Source of the DNA: Streptoalloteichus hindustanus
GTDB taxonomy: Bacteria > Actinomycetota > Actinomycetes > Mycobacteriales > Pseudonocardiaceae
Direction: 5' to 3'
Assembly: GCF_900129375.1 (NCBI RefSeq)
Contig: NZ_FQVN01000006.1
Span: 496,001-560,000 of the forward strand
DNA length: 64,000 nt
A program made the position numbers and the translations under genes. Position 1 is the first letter of the stretch; the number at the start of each line of letters is the position of its first letter. Below, one piece after another: positions 20,120-59,994 of this stretch. Below the pieces are notes generated by a model. That model was not told where the DNA came from. It ran no database searches and saw only the letters and a list, made by a program, of their open reading frames with translations.

Positions 20120-21660
20120 GCGGCGCCCCCTCCGCCGGCGGCCAGCCAGCCCGACCGGGCCGGCCGCAGGTTGTGGTAGACGTGCTTGGCCTCCGTGTAC
20201 TCCTCCAGCCCGGTCGGCCCCAGCTCCCGCCCGACGCCGGACTGCTTGAAACCGCCCCACTCGGCCTGCGGGACGTAGGGGTGGTAGTCGTTGATCCACA
20301 CGGTGCCGTGCCGCAGCCGCCGGGCCACGCGCCGCGCGCGACCGGCGTCGCCGGTCCACACGGCGCCGGCCAGGCCGTAGACGGTGTCGTTGGCCATGGC
20401 CACCGCCTCGTCCTCGGTGTCGAAGACCTCGACGGTCATGACCGGGCCGAAGACCTCCTCGCGCACGGCGGTCATCTCGGCGCGGCAGCCGTCGAGCACG
20501 GTCGGCAGGTAGTACCAGCCGTCGGCCAGCGCGGCGTCCTCCGGCGGCCGGCCGCCGGCCCGCAGCACCGCGCCCTCCGCGAGGGTGGCCTCGACGAGCC
20601 CGGCCACCTTCTCCCGGTGCGCGCGCGAGATGAGCGGTCCACAGTGGACGACGGAGCCGTTCTGTCCACTGTGGACCTTCTCGGAGAACCCGTCGCCGAG
20701 CCGGATCTCCCCGACCCGGTCCACGAGCGCGGCCACGAACCGCTGGTGCAGCTCGCGCTGCACCAGCAGCCGCGCGCCCGCCGAGCAGACCTGGCCGGCG
20801 TGGAAGAACGCCGCGCTGAGCGCGTTGTCCACCGCGGCGTCGAAGTCGGCGTCGGCGAAGACCACGTTGGGGTTCTTGCCGCCCAGCTCCAGGGCCACCT
20901 TCTTCACCGTCGCCGCGGCGTCGGCCATGATCCGCCGGCCCGTGGCCAGACCGCCCGTGAACGACACCATGTCCACGTCCGCGTCGGTGACCATCGCCCT
21001 GCCCACCGGATCGCCCGCGCCCAGCACGACGTTGAGCACGCCGGGCGGGAGCAGCGGCGCGGCGAGCTCGGCGAGCCGCAGGGTCGTCAACGGGGTCAGC
21101 TCGCTGGGCTTGAGCACCACCGTGCAGCCCGCGGCCAACGCCGGCGCGAGCTTCCACGACGCCTGCAACAACGGGTAGTTCCACGGCGTGATCTGCGCGC
21201 ACACCCCGACCGGCTCGCGCACCACCTCGCTGGCCACGTCCGGCCCCGGCGGCTCCACCGTGCGCCCGGACAGCGCCGGCCCGAGACCGCCGTAGTAGCG
21301 GAAGACCGCTGCGACGTCGGCCATGTCCTGACGGCTGTCCGCCAACGGCTTGCCGGTGTCCAGGCTCTCCAGCTCGGCGAGCTCGTCGGTGTGCTCCCGC
21401 ACCAGCTCGCCGATGCGGGTCACCACCTCGCCCCGCTCCGCGGCGGGCAGCGCGGGCCACGGCCCGGAGTCGAACGCGCGCCGGGCGGCCGCCACGGCGG
21501 CGCGCACGTCCTCGGCCGTCGCCTCCGCCACCACGGCGACGACGCGGTCGTCGTGCGGGCAGCGCACCTCGCGAGTGCCACCGGTGCCTGCGGTGTTGGC
21601 GGTGTTGGTCCACCGACCGTCGATCAACAGGCCGCTCGGCGTTCCTGCCGTGCGGGTCAT
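20116..21660 (-). CDS. Aldehyde dehydrogenase, betaine-aldehyde type
   Basis: This 514-aa NAD(P)-dependent enzyme has PWNYPLLQASWKLAPALAAG, the catalytic Glu in VALELGGKNPN and the catalytic Cys in FFHAGQVCSAG. Late motifs are EEVFGPVMTVEVF and EWGGFKQSGVGRELG. HAGQVCSAGARL is typical of betaine aldehyde dehydrogenases. Between GEIRLGDGFSE and CGPLISRAHREKV there are about ten extra residues compared with typical family members, and these coincide with two facing copies of the TCCACWGTGGA palindrome. Start and stop overlap both neighbours by 4 bp, so the three genes are translationally coupled. Confidence 0.88.
   Translation of the reverse strand: MTRTAGTPSGLLIDGRWTNTANTAGTGGTREVRCPHDDRVVAVVAEATAEDVRAAVAAARRAFDSGPWPALPAAERGEVVTRIGELVREHTDELAELESLDTGKPLADSRQDMADVAAVFRYYGGLGPALSGRTVEPPGPDVASEVVREPVGVCAQITPWNYPLLQASWKLAPALAAGCTVVLKPSELTPLTTLRLAELAAPLLPPGVLNVVLGAGDPVGRAMVTDADVDMVSFTGGLATGRRIMADAAATVKKVALELGGKNPNVVFADADFDAAVDNALSAAFFHAGQVCSAGARLLVQRELHQRFVAALVDRVGEIRLGDGFSEKVHSGQNGSVVHCGPLISRAHREKVAGLVEATLAEGAVLRAGGRPPEDAALADGWYYLPTVLDGCRAEMTAVREEVFGPVMTVEVFDTEDEAVAMANDTVYGLAGAVWTGDAGRARRVARRLRHGTVWINDYHPYVPQAEWGGFKQSGVGRELGPTGLEEYTEAKHVYHNLRPARSGWLAAGGGGAA
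20636..20677. repeat. Facing pair of TCCACWGTGGA palindromes inside the aldehyde dehydrogenase gene
   Basis: ggtccacagtggac (20636-20649) and gtccactgtggacc (20664-20677) are each palindromic and are also inverted copies of each other, separated by 14 nt. Together they can form one 14-bp stem. They encode the VHSG and VHCG residues of an apparent small insertion in the protein. Confidence 0.8.
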
Positions 21661-58755: not shown

Positions 58756-59994
58756 GTGCTGCGCTGGATGACCGCTGGTGAGTCGCACGGGCCGGCCCTG
58801 GTCGCCGTGTTGGAGGGCTTGGTCGCCGGGGTCGAGGTGACGAGCGCGGACGTGGCCACCCAGTTGGCCCGCCGTCGGCTCGGCCACGGCCGGGGCGCCC
58901 GGATGAAGTTCGAGGCCGACGAGGTCGACTTCCTCGGCGGCGTGCGGCACGGGCGCACCCAGGGCGGTCCGGTGGCGTTGCGCGTGGGCAACAGCGAGTG
59001 GCCGAGGTGGGAGAAGGTCATGTCTCCCGACCCGGTCGACCCGGCCGAGGTGGCCGGCCTGTCCCGCAACGCGCCGCTGACCCGGCCCCGGCCGGGCCAC
59101 GCCGACCTGCCGGGCATGCAGAAGTACGGCTTCGCCGACGCCCGGCCGGTGTTGGAGCGCGCGAGCGCCAGGGAGACCGCGGCGCGCACCGCGCTCGGCG
59201 CGGTGGCCAGGGCGTTCCTGCGGCAGGCCCTCGACGTCGAGGTGCTCAGCCACGTGGTGTCGATCGGGGAGGTGGACGCTCCGCGCGACGCGGTGCTGCC
59301 CGGCCCCGGCGACCTCGCCGCGATCGACGAGAGCCCGGTCCGCTGCTTCGACCAGGGCGCCAGCGAGGCGATGGTGGCCGAGGTGGACGCGGCGAAGAAG
59401 GACGGCGACACCCTCGGCGGCGTGGTCGAGGTGCTGGCCTACGGCCTGCCGCCGGGTCTCGGCTCGCACGTGCACTGGGACCGCCGGCTCGACGCCCGGC
59501 TCGCCGGCGCCCTCATGGGCATCCAGGCGATCAAGGGGGTCGAGGTCGGCGACGGCTTCACCACCGCGCGCCGGCGGGGCAGCCAGGCCCACGACGAGAT
59601 CGAGCCGGCGGGCGGGGTCACCGGGGTGACCCGGCGCTCCAACCGGGCCGGCGGTCTGGAGGGCGGCATCACCAACGGCGAGCCGCTGCGGGTGCGGGTG
59701 GCGATGAAGCCGATCTCGACCGTGCCGCGCGCTTTGTCCACTGTGGACACCGCGACCGGTGAGCCGGCGGTGGCGATCAGCCAGCGCTCGGACGCGTGCG
59801 CGGTGCCCGCCGCCGGCGTGGTCGCCGAGGCGGTGGTGGCGCTGGTGCTGGCCGACGCGGTGCTGGAGAAGTTCGGCGGCGACTCGCTCGCCGAGACCCG
59901 GCGCAACGCGGAGTCCTACCTCGCGGCGCTGGTGGCCGGGCGCGCGGCGTCCACTGTGGACAGTGAGTCGTCCTCTCCGGAGGCCGGTCGATGA
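58756..59994 (+). CDS. aroC: Chorismate synthase
   Basis: AroC converts EPSP to chorismate with reduced FMN. The 412-aa protein has [56 protein letters not shown] and [39 protein letters not shown] is the third signature. It contains two copies of the GTCCACTGTGGAC palindrome, one near residue 330 and one in the tail. GTG start at 58756. Its stop overlaps aroK (ATGA), so aroC-aroK-aroB-aroQ form one operon. Confidence 0.96.
59736..59748. repeat. TCCACWGTGGA palindrome in aroC (first copy)
   Basis: gtccactgtggac encodes Ser-Thr-Val-Asp in the aroC frame. Confidence 0.6.
59949..59961. repeat. TCCACWGTGGA palindrome in aroC (second copy)
   Basis: gtccactgtggac encodes Ser-Thr-Val-Asp in the non-conserved C-terminal tail of aroC, 213 bp after the first copy. 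Confidence 0.6.

Follow-up and report, generated by a model that had tools for sequence, protein, structure and literature searches.

Why does a stretch of actinobacterial DNA carry the same short palindrome again and again, and what could keep it there? The window, by which we mean the whole analysed stretch of 64,000 nucleotides from Streptoalloteichus hindustanus, had been predicted from its letters to hold eight copies of TCCACWGTGGA, six of them extending to GTCCACWGTGGAC. Each of the eight predicted positions holds an exact copy (8/8) and the extension is borne out for six of the eight, while the copies at 1452 and 41125 depart from the 13-mer solely in the first base. The full unit is the 13-mer GTCCACWGTGGAC, laid out as GTCCAC-W-GTGGAC with A or T at its centre and a 6-1-6 geometry. 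The eight copies and one further single-mismatch copy are:

1452..1464, no strand: ATCCACTGTGGAC with the core TCCACTGTGGA; in the intergenic space of two genes called as convergent; could not be aligned with S. tenebrarius.
20637..20649, no strand: GTCCACAGTGGAC; in an aldehyde dehydrogenase gene (20116-21567, minus strand), VHCG phase; site not conserved in S. tenebrarius.
20664..20676, no strand: GTCCACTGTGGAC; in the same aldehyde dehydrogenase gene (20116-21567, minus strand), VHSG phase, 27 bp from the 20637 copy; 11-bp core conserved in S. tenebrarius.
41125..41137, no strand: CTCCACAGTGGAC; in an IucA/IucC siderophore synthetase gene (40375-42162, minus strand), encoding LSTVE; the S. 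tenebrarius form has one mismatch.
43389..43401, no strand: GTCCACAGTGGAC; in a Lys/Orn monooxygenase gene (42159-43499, minus strand), encoding ASTVD; kept in S. tenebrarius, where the central A is a T.
44084..44096, no strand: GTCCACAGTGGAC; overlaps a GNAT acetyltransferase gene (43496-44089, minus strand) at its start; the S. tenebrarius form has one mismatch.
59736..59748, no strand: GTCCACTGTGGAC; in aroC (58756-59994, plus strand), encoding LSTVD; codons TCC ACT GTG GAC common to S. tenebrarius, Allokutzneria and Amycolatopsis deserti.
59949..59961, no strand: GTCCACTGTGGAC; in aroC past the Pfam domain, within the C-terminal tail; S. tenebrarius has the site too, despite a differing tail.
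22194..22206, no strand: GTCCACACTGGAC; the only single-mismatch copy in the window apart from those at 1452 and 41125, which retain the 11-bp core.

The excess over chance stood, with dinucleotide shuffles of the window giving 0.04 expected copies where 0.01 had been guessed. The original prediction had also put seven copies in genes and five in one codon phase. Our gene calls, made with a simple, non-standard codon-usage caller, place six of the eight in genes, four in the Ser-Thr-Val-Asp/Glu phase and two in a Val-His-Ser/Cys-Gly phase. By these calls the site at 1453 is intergenic. If a GTG slightly upstream (judged by eye) were the start of the GNAT gene, the copy at 44084-44096 would become the fifth in phase and the seventh in a gene.

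The whole S. hindustanus genome (7.28 Mb) contains 448 copies of TCCACWGTGGA, about one per 16 kb, against 3 of the reversed control; the version with G or C at the centre occurs 27 times. A third-order Markov model, under which a count near expectation was to speak against the original prediction, came out for an excess: 45 copies of the 13-mer were found in 1.41 Mb of S. hindustanus and 0.02 were expected. The spacing of the half-sites is fixed. In 1.25 Mb of S. hindustanus, GTCCAC and GTGGAC follow each other 43 times at a gap of 1 and 0-4 times at each other gap from 0 to 30. For four carrier genomes the sequence analysed has the 11-mer at 329-1390x the Markov expectation, the set for G008 having been picked around site pairs; the samples of Crossiella (42 kb, 2 sites) and Saccharopolyspora (85 kb, 0 sites) are too thin to rank it.

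The palindrome is a trait restricted to one family, Pseudonocardiaceae. Among 249 genomes from 46 of its genera, 235 carry one site or more, the count per genome lying between 0 and 717. Genera g16 (478-689, 5 genomes), g34 (550-643, 3 genomes) and g8 (717, 1 genome) are high in copies, g42 (0-2, 15 genomes), g23 (1, 2 genomes) and g4 (0-9, 15 genomes) are near zero, and many genera are intermediate. We counted 359 sites in Streptoalloteichus tenebrarius, 613 and 685 in Crossiella, 643 in Allokutzneria, 356 in Kutzneria viridogrisea, 359 in Pseudonocardiaceae YIM PH 21723, 130 in Amycolatopsis deserti and 88 in Gandjariella. The four Saccharopolyspora genomes range from 54 to 201, and such a several-fold spread within some genera is wider than one would expect of an essential function. 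Outside the family, Nakamurella has 1 site, Blastococcus and Gordonia 0, Salinispora 5 and Kitasatospora 2; of 393 genomes sampled across the class, all but the 3 from Pseudonocardiaceae carry 0-8. Samples from Geodermatophilaceae and from G023, a near-zero genome, lack the exact 13-mer. The G023 sample holds 2 one-off sites against 0.24 expected, and 200 kb of G023 revealed no comparable replacement palindrome.

Is the repetition a by-product of what the genes encode? Codon usage, with codons taken as independent, predicts 0.01 13-mers for contig C19 in its favoured phase, and the excess survives this comparison as well. In the genes of C19, TCC ACW GTG GA encodes 22 of the 31 STV[DE] peptides, against 0.15 expected. 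The Thr codon in this context ends in A 6 times, C once, G once and T 16 times, whereas ACC and ACG make up 97% across the C19 genes. In-gene sites fall into the three codon phases 47, 12 and 2 times. The shared codon phase needs no protein-level cause, since the favoured phase uses common codons and the other two phases are occupied too. Codon usage or a conserved peptide is ruled out as the cause by the 22 of 31 against 0.15 and by the occurrence in all three phases; the motif is maintained as DNA and not as protein code.

Orthologous genes bear on how sites arise. Codons 328-331 of aroC read TCC ACT GTG GAC in the window, in S. tenebrarius (whose AroC is 92% identical to that of the window), in Allokutzneria and in Amycolatopsis deserti; among the remaining 20 aligned sequences 11 read GCC ACN GTG GAC and the others diverge further. 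As all 24 of the 24 rows are ungapped at site 59737 and differ by substitutions, the site arises by substitution. A comparison of 220 kb of S. hindustanus with 213 kb of S. tenebrarius (87% identity) allowed 11 of 13 S. hindustanus sites to be aligned. Eight of these are kept as sites, one with its centre changed from A to T, and two are kept amid flanks of just 67-70% identity. The three that are not kept all differ by substitution. In the reverse direction 11 of 15 S. tenebrarius sites could be aligned and 8 are kept, so that the conservation figures drop 2 of 13 and 4 of 15 sites as unalignable. When random 11-mers are matched to the sites in local identity and A+T, the expectation is 3.27 kept, against 8 of 11 observed (P=0.003; 11 alignable sites, one species pair), in line with the conservation between orthologues that had been put forward as a check. 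The suggestion of a mobile mini-palindrome found no support, because alignable orthologues are ungapped at the site and show substitutions only. An insertion element of the MITE or REP type was likewise rejected: none of the alignable sites has an empty counterpart in the orthologues.

The tolerance of the palindrome to change is graded. In the 1.41 Mb of S. hindustanus, the excess over the third-order Markov model falls from 1,817x for the exact 13-mer to 43x with one mismatch, 3.8x with two and 1.2x with three, and samples of S. tenebrarius and G034 have a similar profile. In 81 one-off sites the changes fall on half-site positions 1-6 in the numbers 20, 11, 4, 3, 20 and 23. The CC positions are altered in only 7 of the 81, which leaves the CC/GG pairs almost invariant. 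This uneven positional tolerance would resemble that of a protein. Transversions (57) outnumber transitions (24), a ratio near the 2:1 of equal rates that argues against transition-biased decay only.

The sites are spread along the chromosome, within genes and between them. Pooling 85 sites from 1.82 Mb of three species, the window included, we found 61 in genes against 70.4 expected (p=0.009), 9 against 2.6 between convergent genes (p=0.0012), 12 against 8.3 in tandem and 3 against 3.7 in divergent intergenic DNA. Sites also occur as close pairs: within 30 bp of each other, 9 pairs were found in S. hindustanus, where a hand estimate from average density gives about 1 by chance, and 39 over eight genomes, G019 having none. 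At least 11 of the 39 sit between convergent genes according to the gene calls, and convergent intergenic DNA makes up about 3% of C19. When four convergent pairs were folded as RNA, the hairpins were strong in three (-29 to -40 kcal/mol) and unremarkable in the fourth (-18.7 kcal/mol, z -1.67). Folding is moderate for two lone sites inside genes (-15.9 and -15.3 kcal/mol, z about -2). Two sites sit at the centre of perfect inverted repeats, 35 and 49 bp long, and the 35-bp repeat, around a lone site, folds at -33.4 kcal/mol. The genes flanking 14 intergenic sites of C19, viewed by eye and without database annotation, share no functional theme, and by the same judgement a transcription-factor regulon is unlikely.

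The original prediction had pointed to the replication origin and terminus as places to look for a bias. Relative to dnaA the sites are not significantly clustered or excluded in samples of two complete chromosomes (74 of 550 sites in G034, KS p=0.11; 31 of 478 in G016, KS p=0.53), and ori/ter organisation was set aside as a role on this ground. By quarter, the G034 sites lean towards dnaA (27, 17, 16, 14); along the chromosome their positions are not quite even (KS p=0.013), though measured from dnaA the unevenness is not significant. The actinobacterial DnaA box, which we take to be TTGTCCACA, has GTCCACA in common with the palindrome. Titration of DnaA was rejected as the abundances are uncoupled, with 15 palindromes and 1 DnaA box in 200 kb of G034.

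Viral DNA carries the palindrome as well. The IMG/VR contig G656 (68.6 kb) has 12 sites and none of the control, which makes it denser in sites than the S. hindustanus genome. Among its genes are those for a portal protein, prohead protease and family A DNA polymerase, and one of its proteins matches annotated phage major capsid proteins. Among the best 80 of 121 capsid-related viral loci, repeated sites occur only in G656 and its two closest relatives, whose capsid proteins are 92% and 91% identical to that of G656 and which together hold 4 sites in 35 kb (one of them, a 13.8-kb piece, has one site). The other 77 loci among the best 80 of 121, amounting to 909 kb, have 1 site. None of the 3 alignable sites is kept between G656 and the first relative; the second relative has one site in common with G656 and two that are not shared. 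Such poor sharing indicates gain and loss of sites within the phage clade. Relatives of the G656 capsid are present in 16 of 297 Pseudonocardiaceae genomes, and the clade presumably infects hosts of this family. Nineteen prophage-centred regions from family genomes (380 kb) hold 6 sites against about 11 estimated from host density, so that phage enrichment is not general; the expectation is a hand estimate, the regions include host flanks, and genus averages stand in for G682, G694 and G705 of the nine genomes. Scans of viral sequences for the pattern returned at least 237 loci, at least 29 of them with 2 or more sites, and many of these matches may be due to chance. In the 22 viral records that we counted whole, each picked for the sites it held, G656 stands out with 12 sites and G657 less so (4 in 25.4 kb), the rest having 2-5. 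A search of a phage collection with the G656 capsid gave 357 records, all below 60% identity. The search of viral sequences with the G656 DNA polymerase found the query contig and no relatives, and no Pseudonocardiaceae plasmid was recognised among the 40 matches listed of 3,367 for an aldehyde dehydrogenase query.

With slightly better than even confidence, we read GTCCACWGTGGAC as an iterated dyad site on double-stranded DNA that is recognised by a putative homodimeric factor acting chromosome-wide and on at least one phage clade, and not on a set of promoters. A protein dimer as the reader is suggested by the symmetry together with the graded tolerance and the nearly invariant CC/GG pairs. 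A trans-acting host factor would be the simplest cause, since it covers both chromosome and phage. This putative sequence-specific factor would bind the dyad on double-stranded DNA, and its sites would be kept by selection or by a biased drive that the factor itself imposes, as has been proposed for HIP1 and uptake sequences. Its role would most likely lie in chromosome organisation, repair or recombination, and the close pairs between convergent genes may be used secondarily as terminator-like hairpins. A biased repair process could mimic selection.

Such a process without any function for the site is the first alternative, to which we give a minor share of belief. A methyltransferase or a mismatch-repair-like activity on part of the palindrome would ratchet near-matches to exact copies, in the style of HIP1. 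The palindromic form, the restriction to a lineage and a gradual mismatch-load profile, as described for the HIP1-containing decamer, Chi and uptake sequences in the accessible text of PMC1939737, agree with this, as does the HIP1 model in the accessible text of PMC4390886. However, changes in one-off sites are not concentrated at the ends alone (20, 20 and 23 at half-site positions 1, 5 and 6), and the G656 clade is enriched too even though it has its own DNA polymerase gene. Moreover, 13 bp is long for a methyltransferase target. Comparably unlikely is a variant that retains the dimeric factor and gives its sites another purpose, namely a genome-wide tag of self-identity or DNA protection in Pseudonocardiaceae, which phages would have evolved by point mutation to pass as self.

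We consider it rather improbable that the palindrome is an uptake sequence of the DUS/USS kind, accumulated by preferential transformation. The location of at least 11 of the 39 close pairs between convergent genes, the strong hairpins of three of the four folded pairs, the high intragenic share and the graded mismatch-load profile would all suit such a sequence. We know of no competence in Pseudonocardiaceae, however, and uptake does not explain a G656 site density above that of S. hindustanus. Those uptake sequences that are quoted in the accessible text of PMC1939737 are, moreover, non-palindromic. Doubtful to a slightly greater degree is a protective or Chi-like tag, in whose absence DNA would be degraded or left unrepaired and which phages of these hosts would evolve to pass as self. 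The 12 sites in 68.6 kb of G656, denser than in the S. hindustanus genome, and the single site in 909 kb of the 77 related loci from the best 80 of 121 fit this idea, but there is a single clear phage clade and prophage regions are unenriched. Chi-type sites are also oriented, whereas a palindrome is not. A transcription terminator element, for which the convergent intergenic excess (9 against 2.6, p=0.0012) and the 35- and 49-bp inverted repeats, the shorter at -33.4 kcal/mol, would speak, is hardly credible with 61 of the 85 sites in genes and only moderate folding of the two lone genic ones.

The dyad read by a putative host factor remains our preferred reading. A palindrome iterated to this extent in a family rich in antibiotic producers bears on the genetic engineering of these hosts. 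Natural controls exist, in the form of carrier and near-zero genera and of a site-bearing phage clade with relatives that lack the site, and make the function of the palindrome directly testable.

The original prediction knew of no described element of this sequence, and we found no published description of the palindrome in the literature searched, most subscription papers lying outside its scope; judged by titles and the starts of abstracts, none of the publications that contain the motif string treats it as a bacterial genomic element. The likeness to HIP1 drawn in that prediction holds in so far as both are iterated genome-wide, mostly in genes and restricted to a lineage, but the sequences, GCGATCGC for HIP1 and GTCCACWGTGGAC here, are not the same. 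HIP1 copies lie largely within coding DNA and have, to our knowledge, no settled function. The present motif differs in its 13 bp, its odd length, its A/T centre and its occurrence in another phylum. In common with HIP1 and the alternate HIPs, as far as the accessible text of PMC4390886 covers them, it is an over-represented palindrome restricted to a lineage of which some members lack it. It is also less abundant: the HIP1 decamer is given as 5,648 copies in 3.57 Mb of Synechocystis in the accessible part of PMC1939737, against 448 in 7.28 Mb of S. hindustanus. By analogy, HIP1 may be the class that the motif works like. With the DUS/USS sequences treated in the same part of PMC1939737, the motif shares its many copies, also in genes, and the graded mismatch-load profile. 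It differs from them in being palindromic and in exceeding host density in a phage. Uptake sequences form close pairs between convergent genes, and so does the present motif. Chi is likewise a short sequence over-represented across the chromosome, but the present motif is longer and, as a palindrome, has no orientation. The parS, SlmA, Noc and MatP sites are palindromic, protein-binding and chromosome-organising; in comparison, the present motif has hundreds of copies and no significant ori/ter bias in the samples of two chromosomes. Iterated sequences have led to core machineries before, from Chi to RecBCD, from uptake sequences to competence receptors and from parS and SlmA sites to chromosome organisation, and the palindrome together with its acquisition by a phage clade points to a DNA-reading system that acts cell-wide.

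Besides the palindrome, contig C19 of the Streptoalloteichus hindustanus genome carries a second iterated element, present in 23 copies over 1.19 Mb and in most cases flanked by convergent genes. Its copies combine one or two extended DnaA boxes, similar to AGTTGTCCACAGG, with a putative promoter containing -35- and -10-like motifs and a conserved stretch, ATAGGCTGGAGCAGGGCTCGCCCCCCAGGGCGGGTGGGGGCTG. An example is the following:

Locus L001, 11493-11610: copy of the second iterated element

A search of Rfam with one copy returned no credible match. The element looks like a multicopy small-RNA family that lies close to DnaA boxes. 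The sequence TTGTCCACA occurs 72 times in C19, with 1.8 copies expected for C19 and the window together, whereas 200 kb of another palindrome-rich Pseudonocardiaceae genome (G034) contained a single copy.

Three palindrome sites (TCCACWGTGGA) are located in or at the edge of a group of siderophore-type genes:

Window 40375-44089: IucA/IucC synthetase, Lys/Orn monooxygenase and GNAT acetyltransferase

Outside the Pseudonocardiaceae, site counts were slightly elevated in two genomes of family f6 in the class-wide sample (eight in G572 and seven in G619). Sites were also observed in viral contigs. The IMG/VR record G664 (L416) has five within about 2 kb (61673-63792) at the end of a 64-kb contig that is otherwise free of them. 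Four low-GC viral contigs (L149, L223, L225 and L236) each contain two sites spaced by exactly 2,894 bp and probably represent one phage group.
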